NCBI GenBank assembly: GCA_023264975.1
Contig: JAHFUS010000031.1
Coordinates: 1 to 44,017 of the forward strand
DNA length: 44,017 bases
DNA from: Actinomycetes bacterium
GTDB taxonomy: Bacteria; Actinomycetota; Acidimicrobiia; Acidimicrobiales; GCA-2861595
Reading direction: 5' to 3'
The notes under the pieces were generated by a model. The model was not told the DNA's origin and made no database searches. It worked only from the letters and a program-made list of their open reading frames with translations. Each line of letters opens with the position of its first letter. Within the stretch, counting starts at the first letter, position 1. Positions 11,991 through 34,809 of the stretch are shown piece by piece. A program made the position numbers and the translations under genes.

Positions 11991-12398
11991 ATGAGCGAGC
12001 ATCTGGGCGAGGCGCTGAGCGCCCTGGTCGACGGCCAGCTGAGCTCCGACGAGGAGATCGCCGCCCTCGACCACCTGGCCGGCTGCGAGGCGTGCGCGGC
12101 GGAGATGGCTGCCACCACGGCCGTCCGCGACCTGGTCCGCTCCCTGCCCCCCGTGGAGCCGCTGCGCCCGCTGGTGGCCGTGCCCGCCCATCCGCAGCCC
12201 CGTCCGGGCCGTCTGGCCGGCGTGCTCGCCGCCGCCGCCGCATCGGTCGCCATGCTGCTCCTGTCGGGCGTCCAGCAGGACGCCGGCACGGGACCCCAGG
12301 TCGCCCAGCTGGTGCAGGTCCACACGACCTCGCCGGTGAACGCCGACCCCATGAGCCAGGTCGCGCCGGCGGCGCTGCCGGTCTCGTTCACGCGGTGA
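11991..12398 (+). CDS. Zinc-binding anti-sigma factor, RseA-like
   Basis: 135 residues. The N-terminal half has the ZAS signature HLAGCEAC (HxxxCxxC), with an upstream LGEALSALVDGQLSSDEE helix, that holds an ECF sigma factor in the cytosol. A single membrane helix follows (AGVLAAAAASVAMLLLSG) with a short outside tail of about 35 residues. It should sequester the sigma factor encoded 37 bases upstream and release it on envelope stress, by proteolysis or by zinc-site oxidation. GGGAG precedes the ATG. The stop overlaps the start of the RseB-like gene as GTGA. Confidence 0.85.
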   Translation: MSEHLGEALSALVDGQLSSDEEIAALDHLAGCEACAAEMAATTAVRDLVRSLPPVEPLRPLVAVPAHPQPRPGRLAGVLAAAAASVAMLLLSGVQQDAGTGPQVAQLVQVHTTSPVNADPMSQVAPAALPVSFTR

Positions 12399-13423
12399 GG
12401 CTCCCGGCCAGGACCGTGGCGGCCCTGGCCGGCGTGAGCCTGGCCGGCTCCGTCGTCGTGCTGGCCGGAGCGGCGGCCGGGTCGACCGCCCGGGGACCGG
12501 TCGAGGATGCACGGGAGGCGGCCCGGCGGGTGCCGTTCTCGGCCCGCGTCGAGGTGTCCTGGGTCGACAAGGGTGAGGTGCACACGGCCCAGCTCGGGGT
12601 GCGTGCCGTCGGCGGCAGCATCAGGGTCCAGGGCCCGGCCGGCGACACCGCTGCTTCAGGTGACGGACTGAGCGGCGGATCGCCGATGGTGATCCAGGCC
12701 AGTGCCGTCACGCCCGCCACAGGCGGCGCCGGCGACCTGCTGGCTCCCGCGCTCGAGCGGAAGTACGACATCGAGCGAAGCGAGGGCCCGCTCGTCGCCG
12801 GTCGCCCGACCGATCAGTTCGTCCTCCGTTCAGGGGACGCGGTGCGCGAGCGGCTTGCCATCGACACCGAGACCGGGCTGGTGCTGCGCCGGGAGGTGCT
12901 CGGGACGGGCGGCGAGGCGGTGCGGGTCGTCACTGTCCTCCAGCTCGACACCGCGCCGGTGCCCGAGGCCGACGACGGGGGGACCACAGGCACGACCAGC
13001 GCCCCCCGGACCGTCAAGGTCGCCAAGCTGCCCTCGGCCTATCGGGCGCCCGCCGACCTCGCCGGCGGCTACCGCCGGGTGGGCGCCTACCGGCGTGACC
13101 GCCTCGTGCACCTCGTGTACACCGACGGTCTGCACGGCATGTCGCTGTTCAGCCAGCCCGGCACCGTCTCAGGTGGCTCCCTCCCGCCCGGCGGCGAAGC
13201 CGTGCAGGTCGGGTCGTCGTCAGGCGTCCATTACACGTGGCCCGGCGGCGACGTGGTGACGTGGCAGGCGGGCCCGGTTGTGCACACGCTGGTGGGCGAC
13301 GGCACGTCGGCCGACCTGCTGGCCGCCGCCCGGTCGTTGCCGCGGCCGGCCGAGCCGTCGGTGCTGGATCGCCTGCGCGGCACCGCCCGCCTGGTGACGG
13401 AGCTTGTCAGCGGCGGTCGGTAG
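12395..13423 (+). CDS. RseB/MucB-like exported regulator of the anti-sigma factor
   Basis: 342 residues with an N-terminal signal or anchor (VAALAGVSLAGSVVVLAGAAAG). The body resembles the two-part RseB/MucB fold: a beta-rich N-terminal half with FSARVEVSWVDKGEVH and LAIDTETGLVLRREVL, and a C-terminal half beginning LPSAYRAPADLAGGYRRVG and containing HLVYTDGLHGMSLFSQPG. RseB binds the outer part of RseA and guards it from cleavage, and senses envelope damage. The GTG start overlaps the anti-sigma stop by four bases, so the two proteins are made together, which strongly supports partnership. Converges on whiB with only two bases between. Confidence 0.78.
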   Translation: MRLPARTVAALAGVSLAGSVVVLAGAAAGSTARGPVEDAREAARRVPFSARVEVSWVDKGEVHTAQLGVRAVGGSIRVQGPAGDTAASGDGLSGGSPMVIQASAVTPATGGAGDLLAPALERKYDIERSEGPLVAGRPTDQFVLRSGDAVRERLAIDTETGLVLRREVLGTGGEAVRVVTVLQLDTAPVPEADDGGTTGTTSAPRTVKVAKLPSAYRAPADLAGGYRRVGAYRRDRLVHLVYTDGLHGMSLFSQPGTVSGGSLPPGGEAVQVGSSSGVHYTWPGGDVVTWQAGPVVHTLVGDGTSADLLAAARSLPRPAEPSVLDRLRGTARLVTELVSGGR

Positions 13424-13425
13424 GT

Positions 13426-13701
13426 TCAGCGGCGGTCGCTGAGCGACGTGGTGCCGGCAGCCGTGTTCCCGGCCCGCTCGAGGCGCCGCCGGCGGGCGAT
13501 GCGTCGCCGCTCGCGCTCTGACGCGCCGCCCCACACGCCGTGGTCGATCTTGTTCCGTAGGGCGTATTCCAGGCACGGGGCCTGCATCGGGCAGGTGGCG
13601 CAGATGCGCCGGGCCACCTCGACCCCGACGCCGTCACTCGGGAAGAAGGTGGCCGGCGGCACCTCACGACACTTGCCCTCGGCCATCCAGTCGGTTTCCA
13701 T
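13426..13701 (-). CDS. WhiB-family iron-sulfur transcription factor
   Basis: 91-residue WhiB protein. Cluster ligands C11, C34, C37 and C43, then the turn HGVWGGASERERRRI and a basic C-terminal tail (ARRRRLERAG). It differs from the WhiB at 8718 in the central segment (VPPATFFPSDGVGVEVARRICATC), so it belongs to another subgroup that I cannot name. The start is well placed: GGAGG six bases before the ATG. Its promoter region has GGGAAC and CGTT in ECF-type array, suggesting it is a target of the adjacent sigma factor. Confidence 0.9.
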   Translation of the reverse strand: METDWMAEGKCREVPPATFFPSDGVGVEVARRICATCPMQAPCLEYALRNKIDHGVWGGASERERRRIARRRRLERAGNTAAGTTSLSDRR

Positions 13702-13721
13702 GACACCTCCGTGCCCGGTTC

Positions 13722-13749
13722 AACGCAGGGCGTAGGGCGATTGGTTCCC
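13722..13749 (-). promoter_or_regulatory. ECF-type promoter of whiB
   Basis: On the minus strand GGGAAC (13749-13744), 18 bases, CGTT (13725-13722), then about 20 bases to the ATG with an intervening GGAGG. Same elements as the sigma gene promoter. Confidence 0.5.
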
Positions 13750-13750
13750 G

Positions 13751-13777
13751 GGTAACTGTTCGGTGAGGCGTAGCGTT
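13751..13777 (+). promoter_or_regulatory. ECF-type promoter of htrA
   Basis: GGTAAC (one mismatch to GGGAAC), 17 bases, CGTT, then four bases to the ATG at 13782. Spacing and start position are identical to the sigma gene promoter. The -35 abuts that of whiB, back to back. A TAGCGT that overlaps CGTT could alternatively act as a housekeeping -10. Confidence 0.5.
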
Positions 13778-13781
13778 ACGG

Positions 13782-15170
13782 ATGGAAGAGTTGTTGCGAC
13801 CAGGGAGGGATGCCGTGGCCGACGACGCCACAACGGGCAATTGGTCTTGGGGCCCGGGCGCCGGCGAACCCGACGAAGACGCCGACGCCGCTGAGGACAC
13901 CGCCCCTCTGGCGGTGCCTGCGGATGCGCCTCCGACGGGCACCGTCGGGCCGCGGCTGCCCGCCGGGGCCGCCGTCGAGCCGCCGCCGTCGACGTGGCCA
14001 TCCGTCCCGACCGGGGACGCACCGCCCGCCTCCCCGCCCGCCGCCGGCAGCGCCAGGAGCGCCGGGTGGGTCGCTGTCGCCGTGGTCGCCGCGCTGATCG
14101 GGGCCGTGGTCGGCGGGGGTGTCGCCGCCCTTGTCGCCGACGACGGAGGTGGCCACAAGACTGCGACGACCACCGCCGCCCGCTCGCCGTCCTCCGTCCC
14201 GTCGTTCGCCAACAACTCCAGCCGCCTGGCCCGGCCCCAGGACATCCAGGGCGTGCTGGCCAAGGTGCAGCCGGGGGTGGTGGCGATCCGCACGGGCGCC
14301 TTCCAGGGCGGCCAGGGCTTCGACCTCGGGGGCAGCCCCGTGCAGGGAGCAGGCACCGGGGTGATCCTCGACACCGACGGGAACATCCTCACCAATGCCC
14401 ACGTGGTGCGGGGTGCCGAGACGATCCAGGTGACCGTCTTCGGCGAGCGTGGGCCACGGGAGGCCGTCCTCGTCGGCGCCGACGATGTCGCCGATCTGGC
14501 CGTCATCAGGGTGAACGACCCCGCCGGGCTCGAGAGCCGGCCGGTGTCGCTCGGCGTGTCCGCCGACTTGAAGGTGGGCGACGACGTGGTGGCCATCGGC
14601 AACGCCCTGGCCCTGCGGGGCGGGCCCACCGTCACCACCGGCATCGTCTCCGCTTTGGAGCGCACCGTCGACCAGCTCTCGAACCTCATCCAGACCGACG
14701 CCGCCATCAACCCCGGCAACTCCGGCGGGCCCCTGGTGAACAGCAACGGCGAGGTGATCGGCATCAACACGGCGGTGGCGGCCAACAACGCGCAGGGCAT
14801 CGGCTTCGCCATCGCCATCGACACGGTGAAGCCGCTCCTCGCCCGCCTCATCGCAGGCGAGGCGGCGCCCGCCCAGGGGTTCCTCGGCGTGAGCACCGTC
14901 ACCCTCACGCCGGAGATCCGGGCCCAGTACGACTACGACGCAGAGGCGGGGGCGATCGTGGTCGACGTGGTGCCCGGCTCGCCCGCTGCTATCGCCGGCC
15001 TCCAGTCGGACGACGTCATCACCCGGATCGGCGACCAGTCAGTCGAGGACAGCGCCAACGTCCAGACGGCGGTCCGGTCCCACAAGCCCGACGAGAAGGT
15101 GGAGATGGAGTGGTCGCGCGGCTCCGACACGCGCACGGCCACCGTCACCTTGGGCTCGCGGCCCAAGTAG
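13782..15170 (+). CDS. Membrane-anchored HtrA/DegP-like serine protease with PDZ domain
   Basis: 462 residues. A cytosolic acidic and Pro-rich N-terminus (1-93) is followed by one membrane helix (residues 95-118), a trypsin-like domain with the full catalytic triad H207 (TNAHVV), D238 (DLAVI) and S314 (GNSGG), and a C-terminal PDZ domain (GFLGV to the end). It degrades or refolds damaged proteins outside the membrane. Mycobacterial HtrA and PepD have the same plan and belong to the SigE regulon. Here it follows the sigma/anti-sigma genes and has a matching promoter, so it is probably both an effector and a feedback part of the stress response. Confidence 0.93.
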   Translation: MEELLRPGRDAVADDATTGNWSWGPGAGEPDEDADAAEDTAPLAVPADAPPTGTVGPRLPAGAAVEPPPSTWPSVPTGDAPPASPPAAGSARSAGWVAVAVVAALIGAVVGGGVAALVADDGGGHKTATTTAARSPSSVPSFANNSSRLARPQDIQGVLAKVQPGVVAIRTGAFQGGQGFDLGGSPVQGAGTGVILDTDGNILTNAHVVRGAETIQVTVFGERGPREAVLVGADDVADLAVIRVNDPAGLESRPVSLGVSADLKVGDDVVAIGNALALRGGPTVTTGIVSALERTVDQLSNLIQTDAAINPGNSGGPLVNSNGEVIGINTAVAANNAQGIGFAIAIDTVKPLLARLIAGEAAPAQGFLGVSTVTLTPEIRAQYDYDAEAGAIVVDVVPGSPAAIAGLQSDDVITRIGDQSVEDSANVQTAVRSHKPDEKVEMEWSRGSDTRTATVTLGSRPK

Positions 15171-15577: not shown

Positions 15578-15976
15578 GTGGAGCGTTGGCGCAGGCGGAT
15601 CTTCTACATGCTCCTCGCCTATTGCGCGGGCATGCTCCTGTGGGCGTCGCGCCCGTGGACGGACACCCAGCGACTGGTGACGCCGCCCGAGGTGCCGTTG
15701 CCGATTGGGGAGCAGTTCGCGTTCGCCAGGTACCGGTGCCCGTCGGTGTTCTCGGGCGCCACCGAGGCGCCGGAGGCGAACGAGGCCACGCCCTACCCGC
15801 CGGCCGACACGCCCTGCAACGAGCAGAGCAGCCACCGGGCGCTGTTCGTGGTCGACCTGGCGGCGGCCGGCGCGGCCATGGCGCTGGTCAAGCGCAGCAG
15901 CATGCGCCACCGTGCCGCGGCCAAGGCGGCCAAGGCGGCCGACGCCCGCGACGCCGAGCTGGCCTCGTCGGCCTGA
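15578..15976 (+). CDS. Small unknown membrane protein
   Basis: 132 residues. One membrane helix at the N-terminus (FYMLLAYCAGMLLWA), an outside loop of about 55 residues with two Cys (YRCPS and TPCNEQ) that could pair, then a second helix (ALFVVDLAAAGAAMALV) and a basic, Ala-rich cytosolic tail (KAAKAADARDAE). No family recognised. The GTG is preceded by TAGGTT at six bases, matching other leaderless genes here. Confidence 0.6.
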   Translation: MERWRRRIFYMLLAYCAGMLLWASRPWTDTQRLVTPPEVPLPIGEQFAFARYRCPSVFSGATEAPEANEATPYPPADTPCNEQSSHRALFVVDLAAAGAAMALVKRSSMRHRAAAKAAKAADARDAELASSA

Positions 15977-16031: not shown

Positions 16032-17294
16032 ATGGTCGAGCTCTCCAAGGGCGCGGCGATCGGCATCTGCGCCGGGGGCGCGGTCGTCGTGGCGGTCCTT
16101 CTGGCCCTGGTCGTGCGCTCGTCCCGGCGCTGGCGCGCCGCCTCCCGCCGCCTGTCCGCCACCGCCACCCGCCTCGAGGTCCCGGGCACCGCGCCGGCCG
16201 GTGACGACCGCGACCTGATCGGCCGGGTCGAGTGCCAGGCCCAGGCCGCCGTCCTCCGGGTGAGCGACGAGGCGGCGCGCGCCGACCGGCTGGCCGGGGC
16301 GCTGGAGCGCACTGGCGTCGGGGTGGTGGTGTGCGACGAGCAGGGCGCCGTCGCCTACCGCAACGCTCCGGCGCCGACCGCCTCTGCCGGGCCCGCGGCG
16401 GACGCCGTCGACGAGGTCCTGCGGGCGACGGTGGGCGGCGACCCGGGGACGGCCCGCACGGTCGAGGTCACCGGCCCGCCGTGGCGCACGCTGCGGGTCA
16501 CCGGTCACCCGCTCGATGACGGGCGCAGGGTGGTGGGCGCTGTCGCCATCGTGGAGGACGTGACCGAGCAACGCCGACTCGACGTGGTGCGGCGCGACTT
16601 CCTCGCCAACGTGACCGCCGAGCTGCGGTCACCCGTCGGCGCCCTCGGACTGCTGGCCGGCACCATCGTGGCCGAGGACGACCCTGCGCTCACCCGCCGG
16701 TTGGCCGGCCGTCTGGAGCAGGACGCGCTGCGGGTGGGGCGCATCGTCGACGACCTGGCCGAGCTGAGCCGCCTCGACTCGCAGGCCCTCCCGACCTCGC
16801 AGGTGGTCCCCGTGCACCTGCTGGTGGCCCAGGCCGTGCAGGAGGCGTGCGCCGCCGCCGCATGGGGTCGGAGCGCCACCGTCACGGTCGACGGAGCCGC
16901 CGATGATCTCGTGGTGGTGGGGGACCGCCGCCAACTCGTGTCCGCCCTCCGTCATCTGGTCGACAACGCCGTGCGGTTCTCCGGCGGCGGCGCGGCGGTG
17001 TCCGTTGGCGCCTCGTGCGGGAACGGGTGGGTCGACGTCGCCGTGGCCGACCGGGGCCCGGGCATCCCGGCCGGCGAGCTCGACCGCATCTTCGAGAGCT
17101 TCTACCGCAGCGGGCCCGACCGGGCCCAAACGCCGGCCGGCACCGGCCTCGGCCTTGCCATCGCGTCGCGGGTCGCCCGCGTCCATGGCGGCCAGGTTCT
17201 GGTGGCGTCCACCGAGGGCGCGGGCTCCACGTTCACCCTGCGGATCCCGTCCGCCGGCCGGGGCAACGGCGCCGCTCCGGCCGAGGTTTCCTAG
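16032..17294 (+). CDS. Histidine-kinase-like sensor lacking the phospho-acceptor His
   Basis: 420 residues, built like SenX3/PhoR kinases. One N-terminal membrane helix (GICAGGAVVVAVLLALVV), a PAS-like domain (GVGVVVCDEQGAVAYRN to VGAVAIVEDVTEQ), a dimerisation helix and a full ATPase domain with N box (HLVDNAVRFS), G1 (DRGPGIP) and G2 (GTGLGLAIA). In the H box, the usual SHELRTP reads TAELRSP: A196 (codon GCC, 16617-16619) replaces the phosphorylated His. No response regulator is next to it. It may be a pseudokinase that binds ATP or a partner kinase, or may phosphorylate elsewhere. The MFS gene begins two bases after its stop. Confidence 0.85.
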   Translation: MVELSKGAAIGICAGGAVVVAVLLALVVRSSRRWRAASRRLSATATRLEVPGTAPAGDDRDLIGRVECQAQAAVLRVSDEAARADRLAGALERTGVGVVVCDEQGAVAYRNAPAPTASAGPAADAVDEVLRATVGGDPGTARTVEVTGPPWRTLRVTGHPLDDGRRVVGAVAIVEDVTEQRRLDVVRRDFLANVTAELRSPVGALGLLAGTIVAEDDPALTRRLAGRLEQDALRVGRIVDDLAELSRLDSQALPTSQVVPVHLLVAQAVQEACAAAAWGRSATVTVDGAADDLVVVGDRRQLVSALRHLVDNAVRFSGGGAAVSVGASCGNGWVDVAVADRGPGIPAGELDRIFESFYRSGPDRAQTPAGTGLGLAIASRVARVHGGQVLVASTEGAGSTFTLRIPSAGRGNGAAPAEVS

Positions 17295-17296
17295 GT

Positions 17297-18625
17297 ATGG
17301 CGTCGGGCACCGCCGGCTGGCGACCGATACGCCATCCAGTCTCGGCCAACGGCCGCATCACCACGCCGCCGTTCCGGCGCCTGGCCGTCACCCACGCCAT
17401 GGCCGTGTCGGGCGACGCCCTCGTCACGGTGGCGCTGGCCGGCTCGCTGTTCTTCGACATCTCGCCCACCGCGGCGCGGAGCAGGGTCGCCCTGTCGCTG
17501 GTGCTCACCATCGCCCCCTTCGCCGTGGTGGCGCCGCTGCTCGGTCCCGCCATCGACCGGGTGCAGGGCGGGCGCCGGCTCATGGTGTCCGCCGCCTCCG
17601 CCGGCCGGGCGGTGGCCGCCCTGTTCGCGGCCGCCTGGATCGACGGCCTGCTGTTGTTCCCCGCCGCCTTCGCCCTGCTGGTGCTGTCGAAGACCCATGC
17701 GGTGGCAAAGAGCTCGCTGGTGCCGACGGTGGTGGAAGACCGCGACGACCTGGTGGGCGCCAACGCCCGCCTCGCCCTGGCCGGGGCGCTGGTGAGCACG
17801 GCCGCCGCCCTGCCCGGCGTGGCCGTGATGCAGCTGGTGGGTGCCGAGTGGGTGATGCGCCTCGCCGCGGCCGTCTTCGCGGTGGCAGCCGTGTCGGCTC
17901 TGCGGATCGTGCAGGTGCATCCCGATGTCGAGGACCTGGCGGAGCGGGCCGAGGCTGCTGAGGACCTCCGCCACGCCGGTGTTCGCCTCGCTGCCATCGC
18001 CACCGGCATTCTGCGGGCGTCCGTCGGGTTCCTGACCTTCCTGGTGGCGTTCGCCCTCCGCCGCGCCCACGAGCCCGCCTGGGTGTTCGGCCTCGTGCTG
18101 GCGGCGAGCATCGCCGGCACGCTCGTCGCCTCGGTGCTGGCCCCGCTCCTGCGACGCCGTGTGCCGGAGGAGCACATGCTGGCGGGGTCGCTCGGGCTGG
18201 TGGCGGTGGCGATGGTGGTTGCCGTGCAGGTGGACGGCCGGCCCGGCGCCGCCGTGGCCGCTGGCGCCGTGGGAGTGGCAGCCGGCGCCGGCAAGCTGGC
18301 CTTCGACTCGCTGGTGCAGCGTGACTCCCACGCCGCCGCCCAGGGCCGGGCGTTCGCCCGCTTCGAGGCGGTGTTCCAGCTGGCGTGGGTGGCGGGTGCG
18401 CTCCTGCCGGTGGCCCTCACCGTCCCCCGCCGGGCCGGCTACGTGCTGCTGGCGCTGGGCTGCGGGGCGGCGGCGATCTCGTACGTCACCGGCCTGACCG
18501 CCCACCGGCGCAGGAGCGCCAAGCGGGTCGAGCGGGTCAAGCGGCGCGCGGCCGATGGTGGCGCTGCGGGCGCGCCCGCCCTGGCCACGCCCAAGGGGCG
18601 GTCGCAGGGCCCGGGGGCCGAGTGA
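17297..18625 (+). CDS. Major facilitator superfamily transporter
   Basis: 442 residues with about 11-12 hydrophobic segments, in two halves around a charged loop (VHPDVEDLAERAEAAEDLRHAG). Small-residue-rich helices such as LALAGALVSTAAALPGVAVMQLV and loops with GPAIDRVQGGRRLM resemble MFS drug or metabolite exporters. Substrate unknown. The ATG lies two bases after the stop of the kinase-like gene and the stop overlaps the next start (GTGA), so the three genes appear to be one operon. Confidence 0.8.
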   Translation: MASGTAGWRPIRHPVSANGRITTPPFRRLAVTHAMAVSGDALVTVALAGSLFFDISPTAARSRVALSLVLTIAPFAVVAPLLGPAIDRVQGGRRLMVSAASAGRAVAALFAAAWIDGLLLFPAAFALLVLSKTHAVAKSSLVPTVVEDRDDLVGANARLALAGALVSTAAALPGVAVMQLVGAEWVMRLAAAVFAVAAVSALRIVQVHPDVEDLAERAEAAEDLRHAGVRLAAIATGILRASVGFLTFLVAFALRRAHEPAWVFGLVLAASIAGTLVASVLAPLLRRRVPEEHMLAGSLGLVAVAMVVAVQVDGRPGAAVAAGAVGVAAGAGKLAFDSLVQRDSHAAAQGRAFARFEAVFQLAWVAGALLPVALTVPRRAGYVLLALGCGAAAISYVTGLTAHRRRSAKRVERVKRRAADGGAAGAPALATPKGRSQGPGAE

Positions 18626-19113
18626 CCACCGAGGTCCTCGTCCTGTCGGACACGCACCTGCGACCTGGTGGTGTCCTGCCCGACAGCGTGTACCTGGCCC
18701 TCGACCGGGCCGACGTGGTCCTGCATGCCGGCGATATCGTGACGGCGGACCTGCTGCACGAGCTGTCCGGCTTCGCCCCTGTCCACGCCGTCCTCGGCAA
18801 CAACGACGTCGACCCGGCCCTGTCCGCACTCCCCGAGCGGCGCCTCGAGGTGGTGGACGGCGTCCGCATCGCCATGGTCCACGACAGCGGCGCCCGCACG
18901 GGCCGGGCGGCCCGCCTCCGCCGCTGGTTTCCCGACGCCGACGTGGTGGTGTTCGGCCACAGCCACATCCCCGTGCGGGAGACGGGGCTCGACGGCCAGC
19001 TCCTCCTCAACCCCGGCTCACCGACCCAGCGACGCGCCCAGCCCGTCCACACCTACGGCTGGCTGGAGCTCGGAGTCGGTCGGGTGGTGCGCAGCGAGAT
19101 CGTGGTCGCCTGA
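18622..19113 (+). CDS. YfcE-type metallophosphoesterase
   Basis: 163-residue calcineurin-fold phosphodiesterase. All metal-binding blocks are visible: SDTH (D, H), HAGD, GNND, MVHD, GHSHIP and the terminal NPGSPTQRR typical of the YfcE/MJ0936 group. Likely a cytosolic Mn-dependent phosphodiesterase; the natural substrate of this group is poorly known. GTG start overlaps the transporter stop by four bases. The gap to the convergent gene (19114-19238) contains only a weak GCCGGC/GCCGGC hairpin at 19157-19174. Confidence 0.88.
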   Translation: MTTEVLVLSDTHLRPGGVLPDSVYLALDRADVVLHAGDIVTADLLHELSGFAPVHAVLGNNDVDPALSALPERRLEVVDGVRIAMVHDSGARTGRAARLRRWFPDADVVVFGHSHIPVRETGLDGQLLLNPGSPTQRRAQPVHTYGWLELGVGRVVRSEIVVA

Positions 19114-19238: not shown

Positions 19239-20426
19239 TCAGTCAGGGATGTCGATGCGCTCTAGCCAGAGGCCGGGGGCGTCGACCTCGGCCGGTGTGG
19301 GCAGCTCGCGCTCGGAGTGCCACAACCGGGCCAGTCCTGCTTCGCCCGCCCGCTCGACCACACCCTTCACGAAGGTGCGGCCCCGCTCGTACTGTGCCGG
19401 CGTCACGTCGAGCCCGAAGAGGCGGGCCACGAACCGCTCGCCCTCGCCCCGCTCGGACCGGCGACGGCGCAGCGCCTCTACCAGCGCCCCGTAGCCCGAC
19501 ACGAGCGTCTGGCCCACGTTGTCCATCACGTGGTCCGTGTAACCCTCGATGGCGGCGACAAGAGCCTCGATGCGGGCCAGGATCACCTGCTGCTCGGGCG
19601 TCTCCATGGCCCCGAGGAGCTCGCCGGGCTCGCCCAGCACCGCCTGGAACGACATCGGGTCAGTGGGGTCGAGGGCGGTGAGCTTGTCCTGGAAGGCATG
19701 GGGATCAGGCCGGAACCCGGCTACGTACGACCGCAGCAGCCCGTCGAGCCGGACCCGCACGTGCGGGCGGCCGAGCACGGCGTGATGGGCGATCTCGTTG
19801 AGGCACAACCACAGGCGCACGTCGTCGATCGACAGGCTCCAGTCGGTGGCGAACTCCGTCACGTTGGCCGGCACGAGCACCAACGCGTCCGACGGGGGGC
19901 GGGGCACCGGCAGCTCGTACTCGCCCAGGGCCCGGCGGGCCAGGTGGCCCACCATGGACCCGGCCTGGATGCCGAGGAGCAGCGGGCCCACGACCTCGGT
20001 GACGCCGCCGAACGCGTACATCCCGGCCTCGGCGCCGGTGGGGTCGTCGTCCTCCTCGGCGCCGGCGGTCGACGCCAGCGCCCCGGCCAGGCCCTCGAAC
20101 AGCGGGTGGTAGGCCGAAAGCGTTCGCCGGGCCCACTCGGCCCGGCCCACCGTGGTGACCGTGAGCGGATGGCCGGTGACCGTGGTGGAAAGCCCGGTGG
20201 CCTTGGCCACGTGCAGGTCGGCCACCCGCACCAGCTCCTCGTACTTCATGCGCTCGACCGGGTCGGTGTTGGGCTCGGGCCGGCCGTCGGTGGCCAGCCA
20301 CAGGCTCATCTGACGGGCCACCTCGAGGTTCACGGCGCCCTGATTCGACAGCAGCTTGGCCAGCTCGCCGAACAGGCCCTCGAAAGGGTTGCCGGCGCCG
20401 CCTCCGAAGGGTTCCGAACCGCTCAC
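19239..20426 (-). CDS. Zincin_2 / DUF2342 family protein with altered HExxH motif
   Basis: 395 residues, recognisable as the actinobacterial zinc-dependent metalloprotease-like family also called F420-biosynthesis-associated. Typical pieces: LADLHVAKATGL-like segment near 70-80, ADRRTL-like helix (WARRTLSAYHPLFEGLAG), GPLLLGIQAGSMVGHLARRALGEYELPVPRP, LVLVPANVTEFATDWSL and EGYTDHVMDNVG. Where the family is expected to have a HExxH zinc site, this protein reads N210-E-I-A-H214 (codon AAC), so the first ligand is gone. It may be inactive or use another ligand. GTG start is preceded by TACCAT at six bases. True enzymatic function is unproven even for the family. Confidence 0.78.
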   Translation of the reverse strand: MSGSEPFGGGAGNPFEGLFGELAKLLSNQGAVNLEVARQMSLWLATDGRPEPNTDPVERMKYEELVRVADLHVAKATGLSTTVTGHPLTVTTVGRAEWARRTLSAYHPLFEGLAGALASTAGAEEDDDPTGAEAGMYAFGGVTEVVGPLLLGIQAGSMVGHLARRALGEYELPVPRPPSDALVLVPANVTEFATDWSLSIDDVRLWLCLNEIAHHAVLGRPHVRVRLDGLLRSYVAGFRPDPHAFQDKLTALDPTDPMSFQAVLGEPGELLGAMETPEQQVILARIEALVAAIEGYTDHVMDNVGQTLVSGYGALVEALRRRRSERGEGERFVARLFGLDVTPAQYERGRTFVKGVVERAGEAGLARLWHSERELPTPAEVDAPGLWLERIDIPD

Positions 20427-32256: not shown

Positions 32257-34809
32257 ATGTCCGCTTCGAGCGCTCAGCTCCAATTCGCCGCCGAATTCGT
32301 CCTGTTCCTGGCCGCAATGTCGGGGCTCGCCGTCGTCGCGCTGCGGGGGGCGCTGCTGAGCGACAAGGTGTCCGGCGAAGCCGCGCTCACCGCCGGCTTC
32401 CTCGCCCTCGCAACCTCCGCCTTCCTTCACGGGTCGCGGCTGGTCGACGACGGCGGGTCCACCGTCATCGTGGGCCTGCGCACGGCCGGCATCGTGGGAG
32501 TCCTGGCCGGGTGCCTGCTGGGGTGGGTCGCCGGCGAGGCGGCCCGCATCCTCCTGGCTCTGGCGGTTGCCTCGCTGGCTGCCGCCACCTTCGTCGACTC
32601 GGGCGACTCGTCCACCTTCTCGCGCGTCACCCTCGTGGTCGGTGGCCTGGCCATGGGCGTGGCGGTGCTGGTGGCCAGCCGCCGCTCCATCGCCGCACGG
32701 GTCGCCGCCACGGCCGCCGTCACCCTGCTCATCGTGGTGCTGGTGCTGGGCGTGGCCCTCTCCGCCGTGCTTGTGAACACCGTCCAGGACAGCGCTGTCG
32801 ACCGTATCGAGCGCCGGGCCCTGAACGAGGCGAAACGGGCAGGCCTGCAGCCCGCCGATCGCATCCGGGATGCCAAGATCGTTGCGTCGACGCTTCTCGG
32901 CGACGATCGCATTGCCAACGTACTGGCGGCCAAACAGTCGCCCAACCCGTCGGACATCCTCACCCAGGACCTCCAGACGCTGTCGAACCGGTTCCTCGCC
33001 GACGTCGCGCTCGCGTATGTCTCCCCCGGAGGCCAGGTGCACGGCGTGGCCAACCTCGACAAGGTGCAGGTCTTCGAACTGGCGGGCAAGCCGGTGGTCA
33101 TCGAGGCGTTGCGGTCGGCCGACGAGCGGACGTCCGTCGAGCTTCTCGGCAACCAGGCCTACTCCGTGGGGGTCGAGCCCGTACAGTCGGCCAGGACGGC
33201 GGGCCTGGCCGGCGTGGCCATCGCCCTACAGAAGCTCGACGACACCTACCTGGAACAGGTCGCCACCGACGACGAAAGGCTGTCGCTCGCCCTCGTCAAG
33301 AGCTCGACGGTGGCCAAGCGCGGTGAGCAGCCCAGCGCCTCGGCGATCGCAGGCATGGTACGGGCCGCCCTGGTCGACGGCCGGGCGAGCAGGGGCGTCG
33401 TCGACGAGCGCTTCGTGGCTGTGGCCCCGGTTTTGCTGGGGGACGGGACGCCCCAACTCGCCCTGGTGGCGTCGAGCCCCACCACGCTGGTGGGCAAGAC
33501 CCGCGACGACCTGTTCCGCAGTCTCTTCCTCGTCGCACTGGGCGGGGCCATGCTGGCTTTGCTGTTCGCCGTCGTCGTCGGCGCCCGCATCGGGAGCGGC
33601 CTCGCCCGGTTGCGGACCGCCGCAGAGGCCATCCAGGGCGGCGACTTCGGCGTGCGTACGGGCATCGCCAGCGCCGACGAGGTTGGCGTTCTGAGTCGGG
33701 CCTTCGACAAGATGGCCTCGTCCGTGCAGGACAAGACGGCGGCCGAGGTGCGCTTGCGGGGCCGTCTCGAGGCGGTGGTGGGAGGGATGGGCGAGGCGCT
33801 GGTCGCCCTCGACGAGCAGGGCCTCATCACGGACTTCAACCGCGCCGCCGAGGAGCTGCTGGGCGTTCGCCAGAACTACGCGGTGGGAAAGCCCGTGGCC
33901 GACGTCGTCCGGCTCATCGACGAGGACGCCACGCCCATCCCGATCGATCCCACGCCCGGTGCCGGTCGGTGGAGCACGCTCGGGTCGGTGCAGGCCATCG
34001 ACGGCCGCCAGGTGCCCGTGGCCGTGTCGGTGGGCGCCCTGCACGGTCCCGGTGCCGAGTCCAAGGGCAGCGTCATCGTCCTCGCCGATCTCACGAGCGA
34101 GCGCGAGGTCGAGCAGATGAAGAAGGAGTTCCTCTCCCGGGTCGGCCACGAGCTCCGCCACCCGCTCGTGCCGCTCATGGGCTACGCCGAGATCCTGAAC
34201 CGCAAGGAGGTCTCGCCCGAGCAGGCCCGCTTGATGCACACGGAGATGCTCGACCAGTCCCGAAAGCTCCTGCGGATCGTGGAGATGCTCGAGTTCTTCG
34301 CCGCCGCCGGCGCCGGGCGGATCCTCCTTCGCCTCGAGGAGGTCGACCCCCGCACGGTCATCGACGACATCGTGCGCAAGTGGCAGATGCAGCTCGGCAC
34401 GCCCGAGGTGATCCGGCCGCGGGTGCGCCGCAGCACCCCCCTCGTGGTCGCGGATCGAGTGCGTCTCACCAAGTGCCTCGACGAATTGGTGGACAACGCG
34501 GTGAAGTTCTCCGTCAATGGTGGGAAAATCGTGGTGTCGGCCGAGCCGGGCCCCGATGGAGGCGTGGAGATCAGCGTGACGGACCATGGCCAGGGGATGA
34601 CGGCGGCGGAGCAGCAGCAGTCGTTCGAGGAATTCGTCCAGGGGGACCCCTCCGACACCCGCCCCCACGGTGGCCTCGGTCTCGGTCTGGCCTTCGTGCG
34701 CCGGGTCATAGAGGCGCACGGAGGAAGCTTGACCTGCACGTCCGCCGTAGGAAAGGGCTCGAAGTTCTCAATCTTTGTGCCTGATGTGCCGAGAGGAACG
34801 GCGGGATGA
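32257..34809 (+). CDS. Multi-domain membrane sensor histidine kinase
   Basis: 850 residues. Six or so N-terminal membrane helices (to about residue 175), an outside sensor domain (about 180-415), a further helix (about 421-443), HAMP (444-497), PAS (about 505-620), a HisKA domain with H631 in FLSRVGHELRHPL, and an ATPase domain (N box DELVDNAVKFS, G1 DHGQGM, G2 GGLGLGLAF). It phosphorylates a response regulator that is not in the window. The last four bases overlap the start of a lipoprotein gene, so the lipoprotein may be a signal partner. Possible leaderless start (TATAGG seven bases before ATG), a weak match. Confidence 0.88.
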   Translation: MSASSAQLQFAAEFVLFLAAMSGLAVVALRGALLSDKVSGEAALTAGFLALATSAFLHGSRLVDDGGSTVIVGLRTAGIVGVLAGCLLGWVAGEAARILLALAVASLAAATFVDSGDSSTFSRVTLVVGGLAMGVAVLVASRRSIAARVAATAAVTLLIVVLVLGVALSAVLVNTVQDSAVDRIERRALNEAKRAGLQPADRIRDAKIVASTLLGDDRIANVLAAKQSPNPSDILTQDLQTLSNRFLADVALAYVSPGGQVHGVANLDKVQVFELAGKPVVIEALRSADERTSVELLGNQAYSVGVEPVQSARTAGLAGVAIALQKLDDTYLEQVATDDERLSLALVKSSTVAKRGEQPSASAIAGMVRAALVDGRASRGVVDERFVAVAPVLLGDGTPQLALVASSPTTLVGKTRDDLFRSLFLVALGGAMLALLFAVVVGARIGSGLARLRTAAEAIQGGDFGVRTGIASADEVGVLSRAFDKMASSVQDKTAAEVRLRGRLEAVVGGMGEALVALDEQGLITDFNRAAEELLGVRQNYAVGKPVADVVRLIDEDATPIPIDPTPGAGRWSTLGSVQAIDGRQVPVAVSVGALHGPGAESKGSVIVLADLTSEREVEQMKKEFLSRVGHELRHPLVPLMGYAEILNRKEVSPEQARLMHTEMLDQSRKLLRIVEMLEFFAAAGAGRILLRLEEVDPRTVIDDIVRKWQMQLGTPEVIRPRVRRSTPLVVADRVRLTKCLDELVDNAVKFSVNGGKIVVSAEPGPDGGVEISVTDHGQGMTAAEQQQSFEEFVQGDPSDTRPHGGLGLGLAFVRRVIEAHGGSLTCTSAVGKGSKFSIFVPDVPRGTAG

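Follow-up and report, generated by a model that had tools for sequence, protein, structure and literature searches.

A SenX3-like histidine kinase of the Acidimicrobiales with a conserved alanine at the phospho-acceptor position

Introduction

To our knowledge, only a few pseudo-histidine kinases found in nature have been worked out, DivL and RocA among them. DivL of Caulobacter has a histidine kinase fold without the acceptor histidine, which is a tyrosine in this case, and a PAS input; DivL is reported to be devoid of kinase and phosphatase activity, to bind DivK~P, and to bind ATP weakly (PMC4211667). RocA of group A Streptococcus is likewise a histidine kinase-like pseudokinase, and it is described to act through the canonical kinase CovS (PMC7028121). 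According to passages of the same report, RocA keeps its histidine (H246), has a CA domain that is short of some residues essential to a kinase, and possesses six putative membrane helices, which is nearly the reverse of the pattern reported here (PMC7028121). Among actinobacterial paralogous kinases, inactive ChrS of Corynebacterium glutamicum raises HrrS signalling, and passages of that study describe heterodimerization of the native pair and mention that no heterodimer was seen with truncated ChrS; however, this ChrS pseudokinase is a laboratory frameshift in the CA domain that is not described there as natural, and its histidine is present but dispensable (PMC9491836). A histidine-to-alanine exchange in a HisKA kinase bound to its regulator is seen in the HK853 H260A–RR468 crystals (6rh7, 6rh8, as far as their entries describe them), but there the exchange was engineered.

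The kinase analyzed here resembles SenX3 of the SenX3–RegX3 system, a phosphate-sensing system of the PhoR–PhoB type, in its PAS-HisKA-HATPase architecture with an N-terminal helix and in the phoU and regX3 genes that accompany it in syntenic relatives. Passages of a study on SenX3 of M. smegmatis describe that the PAS domain is required for Pi sensing and that PhoU shifts SenX3 to a phosphatase mode (PMC12301784). In contrast to SenX3, our kinase lacks the acceptor histidine, has a serine in place of the threonine at position +4, and has neither regX3 nor phoU next to its gene. It thereby adds to the known class of pseudo-histidine kinases; our searches of open-access papers brought up no report of a SenX3 without histidine, nor of any SenX3-like member of this class, and no paper on a histidine kinase pseudokinase from Acidimicrobiia.

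Results

The window, i.e., the whole stretch of 44,017 nucleotides that was analyzed, encodes the kinase P0001 (420 residues) at 16032-17294 (+) in a clean frame, the start of which is backed by the beginnings MVELS/MLELS in two relatives, G003 and G001 (labels with G, C or L, and f are our handles for genomes, contigs or loci, and families). The H box reads NVTAELRSP, with alanine at residue 196 and the codon GCC at 16617-16619 (sequence around the H box: ...RRDFLANVTAELRSPVGALGLL...). A preliminary description, made from the letters of the window alone, had named the clean frame and the alanine in place of the phospho-acceptor histidine, and both observations hold. The features of the kinase gene are:

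16032..17294, + strand: SenX3/PhoR-like histidine kinase without the histidine, P0001, by translation and by HisKA and HATPase_c matches
16284..16559, + strand: PAS-like domain, residues 85-176, by a PAS_4 match of 22.8 bits and the helix-strand pattern of the predicted structure
16563..16778, + strand: DHp helices, residues 178-249, by the predicted-structure helices 178-214 and 218-249, with a dN/dS of 0.13 (residues 176-255)
16617..16619, + strand: Ala196, codon GCC, phospho-acceptor His position, a column with His in 120/133 rows
16629..16631, + strand: Ser200, codon TCA, at the +4 Thr position, with Thr in 118/120 His rows and 3/13 non-His rows
16899..17255, + strand: CA (HATPase) domain, residues 290-408, by Pfam, conserved residues, and the predicted structure
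16965-16967, + strand: N312 in the CA domain
17049-17051, + strand: D340 in the CA domain
17139-17153, + strand: G370-G374 in the CA domain

As HisKA (32.8 bits, Pfam cut-off 26.9) and HATPase_c (91.5 bits, cut-off 26.4) both exceed their cut-offs, the gene would otherwise pass for an ordinary sensor kinase; the H-box histidine expected of the HisKA type is missing. The PAS_4 match stays slightly under its Pfam cut-off (22.8 vs 23.1 bits). The predicted structure (mean pLDDT 80.2, pTM 0.65, from a 23-row alignment) consists of a low-confidence N-terminal helix, the PAS-like segment, a pair of DHp helices, and the CA domain; Ala196 is located on the first DHp helix. The best fold matches were WalK and a CovS/VicK-like kinase; the HK853 H260A complexes were also found, and DivL (4q20) was found at ranks 6 and 9, which is not specific because many ordinary kinases match as well.

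By sequence, we class the protein as a SenX3/PhoR-like paralogue. It stays below the curated NCBIfam cut-offs of the PhoR equivalog TIGR02966 (182.5 vs 334.2 bits needed) and of the PnpS equivalog NF046044 (176.7 vs 400 bits needed). Its own genome contains a second, histidine-bearing relative at C130:98028-99194, which is 44% identical, has the H box NVSHELKTP, and precedes genes for an OmpR-type regulator and a PhoU protein (Pfam PhoU, Response_reg, Trans_reg_C). The names SenX3, RegX3, and PhoU are assumed by us from gene order and general knowledge, and neither from a curated SenX3 model nor from a comparison with mycobacterial SenX3. RegX3 has one close copy in this genome, and the next regulator is 49% identical. 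Common descent of the window kinase with histidine-bearing, RegX3-linked SenX3-like kinases is indicated by the shared MFS-Zincin locus and by two quick trees, one with 92 and one with 133 rows, in which it groups among such kinases, next to the SenX3 copies of that locus; the forks nearest to it have weak support.

In the DHp region, 43/70 residues are identical between the window kinase and the SenX3 of the same genome, and of the positions +7, +11, and +12, which we take to determine regulator specificity, +11 and +12 match and +7 is Gly vs Ala (2/3 same). Co-evolution with the resident SenX3 was considered, but the 13 pairs from one genome have a mean DHp identity of 0.48, barely higher than the 0.47 of 138 between-family pairs, and there is therefore no sign of it in this comparison.

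We compared the acceptor site in 133 distinct SenX3-like rows from 113/298 genomes of the order; this is not a random sample, as genomes with two copies and genomes with the MFS locus were included deliberately. Identical rows were counted once, and one row (L138, from G071) was dropped, its H box being cut by a contig end. The acceptor column holds His in 120 rows, Ala in 4, Gln in 4, Tyr in 2, Asp in 2, and Glu in 1. A histidine-bearing copy is also present in all 13 genomes that have a His-less one, and the 20 genomes with two rows divide into 13 with one His and one non-His copy and 7 with His in both. An adjacent regX3 accompanies 110 of the His rows (8 are without, 2 undecidable) and a single non-His row, the tandem in G269 (12/13 are without); since the rows share ancestry, this tabulation is not a test of independence. 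Of the eight unpaired His rows, three (f40) are accompanied by a regX3-like gene about 600 bases away on the opposite strand, two (G033, G239) adjoin phoU, with regX3 at a distance of about 6 to 7 kb, and the remaining three (G051, G126, G083) showed no regX3-like gene within the stretch examined. Beyond the order, profile A2 at a strict threshold (E <=1e-100) matched 14/296 genomes of a phylum sample, 13 of them within the order and 1 from another part of the class; the threshold is too strict to argue for absence from other groups.

Within the window's own family f1, the alanine copy occurs in 4/6 genomes, namely its own (G000), G003, G001, and G005, with identities to the window kinase of 74%, 65%, and 55%, respectively; the relative L196 is 54% identical. 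Of the other two genomes, G002 has the locus without the kinase, and in G004 (85% complete) the His-bearing copy is the sole close match. A search for kinase remnants gave low-score matches only in G002, G034, and G029. The four alanine loci share the flanking WhiB, HtrA, MFS, YfcE, and Zincin_2 genes, the frames are intact in all four species, and the alanine is kept across three genera. The preliminary description had regarded histidine in orthologues as a sign of sequencing error or recent loss. The close orthologues have alanine; it is the distant syntenic relatives that have histidine, and regX3 adjoins the kinase gene in almost all of these (not in G083). In a genome of 139 contigs, an error of assembly or sequencing, or a fortuitous substitution confined to this genome, could be suspected, but the same alanine at the same syntenic locus in three other genomes rules this out, as it does a recent loss, and GCC is two base changes away from CAC, the commonest His codon (97/120), so that we assign a vanishingly small probability to this explanation. 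The substitution is thus confirmed as real and conserved, and a histidine kinase fold without the acceptor histidine, a state conserved in orthologues, agrees with a pseudo-histidine kinase of the DivL kind; the sequence suggests that kinase and phosphatase activity are both lost.

The residues around the acceptor site have not been kept equally. Glu at +1 is present in 120/120 His rows vs 11/13 non-His rows, and Thr at +4 in 118/120 vs 3/13. We assume that this threonine belongs to the ExxT phosphatase motif of this kinase class, and therefore acceptor and phosphatase chemistry both look relaxed. In the CA domain, the ATP-site core of the window kinase is complete (N312, D340, G342, G344, G370, G372, G374), and in the non-His rows N312 is kept in 12/13 and the other six in 13/13. 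The ATPase motifs, which had been described as intact in the preliminary description, are so in their core residues but not over the whole CA domain, where 31/40 of the positions with a conservation of at least 95% among His-bearing relatives are kept and 9/40 are changed. For comparison, eight sampled His rows keep 35/40 to 39/39 of these positions and the His-less copy of G042 keeps 19/40. The G042 copy (L292) is more degenerate, with Asp at the His site and the N-box Asn missing.

The retained N-, D-, and G-box residues and the HATPase_c score, which in a comparison across the genome (93.5 bits) takes the 12th place among 39, would fit an active kinase that phosphorylates a partner kinase or another of its own residues; phosphorylation of another residue had been suggested in the preliminary description. 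However, a substitute acceptor at the His site itself is weakened, because Ala and Gln, both present, cannot take up phosphate and no single residue is favored: the presence of A, Q, D, and E speaks against a preferred replacement such as Tyr, which we reject. We consider an active kinase with another acceptor very unlikely.

The neighborhood of the kinase gene in the window is as follows:

13426..13701, - strand: WhiB-family regulator, conserved upstream flank, by Pfam and synteny
13782..15170, + strand: HtrA-like trypsin/PDZ protease, upstream flank, common to the four Ala loci
15578..15976, + strand: hypothetical protein between HtrA and the kinase, with a 59% identical copy in G003
17297..18625, + strand: MFS transporter, its ATG 2 bases past the kinase stop; regX3 lies between in many relatives
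18622..19113, + strand: YfcE-type metallophosphoesterase, with a GTG start and a 4-base overlap with the MFS stop
19239..20426, - strand: Zincin_2/TIGR03624-type protein, conserved flank, by domain matches and synteny

For the hypothetical protein, neither Pfam nor NCBIfam gave a match at E 0.001. Judging from the spacing, the kinase, MFS, and yfcE genes are probably co-transcribed. Both regX3 and phoU are absent at this locus, and no RegX3-like gene adjoins the kinase, which thus lacks the adjacent OmpR-type regulator of a SenX3–RegX3 pair; the earlier statement that no response regulator lies beside the kinase is hereby borne out. A regulator between the kinase and the MFS gene was considered and rejected, as the window leaves only 2 bases of room.

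A search with the MFS gene at E 1e-60 matched 130 of the 298 genomes in the order, and we examined 80 regions, 20 from kinase matches and 60 taken almost entirely from the higher-ranking MFS matches, of which 66 had a kinase match and 14 had none (some being cut by contig ends). The commonest arrangement is senX3(His)-regX3-MFS within 2.5 kb (40/66 loci), with phoU upstream in 31 of these 40. A His kinase with regX3 and a more distant MFS gene was found in 5/66 loci, a His kinase with the MFS gene and without regX3 in 1/66 (G083), a His kinase without the MFS gene in 10/66, and a kinase cut before the H box in 1/66. A non-His kinase with the MFS gene and without regX3 was found in 9/66 loci, ten with the window: Ala in f1 (G003, G001, G005), Tyr in f8 (G012), Gln in f14 (G018) and in genus g32 of f29 (G033, G117, G239), and Asp in f10 (G014, upstream side cut by a contig end). 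Syntenic copies with His and regX3 also occur in f12 and f40. The SenX3-like paralogue identity, the regulator in the commonest operon, and the sharing of the MFS gene with His-bearing relatives had been missed in the preliminary description.

The gap between kinase and MFS gene contains only a minus-strand open frame in G005, G012, and G083, and no named gene in G018. The minus-strand frames (L118:10923-11387, L119:10208-10897, and L141:5842-6384, all -) start like MxDLSxxLGDLY and occupy the place that regX3 has elsewhere; the window has no such gap.

The window kinase is under purifying selection, and the DHp region is the most constrained of its three parts. Between G000 and G003, the whole kinase has an NG86 dN/dS of 0.26, and residues 1-175, 176-255, and 290-410 have 0.36, 0.13, and 0.15, all of them approximate values in genes this rich in GC; the neighbors have 0.19 (MFS), 0.22 (HtrA), and 0.25 (YfcE), and the canonical pair has 0.14 (SenX3) and 0.06 (RegX3). 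Against G001, the values are 0.45 (whole kinase), 0.50 (HtrA), and 0.29 (MFS). The kinase is therefore held like its operon neighbors and less tightly than the canonical SenX3.

These values bear on the question of whether the kinase is a relic without present function that is decaying while the second SenX3-RegX3 pair does the work. In favor of a relic, the His site is occupied by several residues, most His-less copies have lost the +4 Thr, their CA positions are drifting, and the N-box Asn is gone from the G042 copy. Moreover, G002 and G034 have the HtrA-MFS-YfcE-Zincin locus without the kinase, which can therefore be lost. On the other hand, intact frames in four species, a dN/dS near that of the operon neighbors with the low value in the DHp region, an alanine that is constant across three genera, and an ATP-site core kept in 12 or 13 of 13 non-His rows speak against decay, and we regard a relic as unlikely.

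On the 133-row quick tree, 4 changes are required to explain the non-His state, and well-supported branches force 3 of them. In the AU test, a single clade of the nine A/Q/Y rows from f1, f8, f14, and f29 was not rejected (p-AU 0.913); its likelihood was higher than that of the free tree, which is thus not the best tree. One loss of the histidine at the MFS locus with subsequent drift of the residue is possible. The copies of G269, f47, and f38 are candidates for separate losses; those of f47 and f38 group with His-bearing copies that lack regX3, and several rows among all these candidates lie on long branches.

In G269 (f7), the order is phoU, senX3 (His), a second senX3-like gene with Tyr (NISYELRTP), regX3, and an MFS match. 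In the ten other f7 genomes examined, a single match was obtained at E 1e-45, and it bears His. The feature concerned is:

L265:1480-3549: tandem gene pair of G269, SenX3 (His) plus SenX3-like (Tyr), flanked by phoU and regX3

This row is the strongest link of a His-less copy to the canonical pair.

Discussion

The sequence evidence argues strongly that the window kinase is a pseudokinase. This had already been proposed in the preliminary description, and it is supported by the alanine in close orthologues, by Q, Y, D, or E in others, and by the His copy with regX3 and phoU elsewhere in the genome. We see an even chance that it is a pseudo-histidine kinase that is kept by selection and modulates the canonical SenX3–RegX3 pair. 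A SenX3-like kinase, at a locus that in relatives unites phoU, senX3, and regX3, would have been left without regulator, phoU, and acceptor histidine; it would be incapable of normal autophosphorylation and probably have no normal phosphatase activity, and its DHp helices may still mediate dimerization and/or regulator docking. The signal read by the PAS domain would then modulate the output of SenX3–RegX3, and this signal could be PhoU or phosphate, because in passages of the M. smegmatis study the PAS domain of SenX3 senses Pi and PhoU shifts the mode of SenX3 (PMC12301784). Two sub-mechanisms are conceivable: the pseudokinase could form a heterodimer with SenX3, in which its CA domain possibly phosphorylates the SenX3 histidine in trans, or it could sequester or read out RegX3~P. 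All 13 genomes with a His-less copy keep a His copy, and this, together with the tandem in G269, is counted in favor of modulation. We also count for it the purifying selection, the DHp identity to the resident SenX3 with two matching specificity positions, the single close RegX3 copy of the genome, the HK853 H260A–RR468 crystals, and ChrS as an actinobacterial precedent. We count against it that 12/13 His-less copies do not lie beside regX3, that the CA domain drifts, that co-evolution with the resident SenX3 gave no sign, that ChrS heterodimers were reported for the native proteins and not for the truncated one, and that the locus exists without the kinase in G002 and G034.

A different destination of the signal would be given by a read-out as in DivL, i.e., the protein would sense an input, bind RegX3~P or some other regulator, and signal to a different partner. 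The PAS and DHp-CA architecture, the Tyr in two relatives (G012 and G269) as in DivL, the presence of DivL among the fold matches, and the mostly lost +4 Thr agree with this. However, DivL belongs to a different pathway and binds ATP weakly, whereas the ATP-site core looks normal here, and we hold a DivL-like read-out to be distinctly improbable.

Returning to modulation of the canonical pair, the idea can be extended to the order: SenX3 kinases that lose their operon regulator may repeatedly become His-less, ATP-competent partners of a second SenX3–RegX3 pair, acting in mixed dimers or as readers of RegX3~P to retune a phosphate-type response. We offer this extension tentatively and consider it doubtful. 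If true, it would describe a recurrent route from sensor kinase to pseudokinase with visible intermediates, i.e., the histidine-bearing kinases without adjacent regX3 in G051, G083, and G126. This one kinase family shows paired His, unpaired His, and unpaired His-less kinases plus the tandem His and Tyr row beside regX3, and it makes testable whether the regulator is lost before the histidine and whether the His-less copies act through the intact paralogue.

Some further observations concern the surroundings of the kinase. In G012, a surE gene (Pfam SurE, L119:6847-7650) lies between HtrA and the kinase, and sequence similar to it was recognized by eye in L149 and L162; this may point to an older HtrA-SurE stretch that is absent from the window. 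A second histidine kinase of the window, at 32257-34809, has 850 residues and a HAMP-PAS-HisKA-HATPase architecture. Upstream of the kinase locus, Pfam domains identify a zf-HC2 anti-sigma-like gene, WhiB, and HtrA at 11991-15170, an arrangement that, as we assume, resembles the sigE-rseA-htrA neighborhood of mycobacteria.
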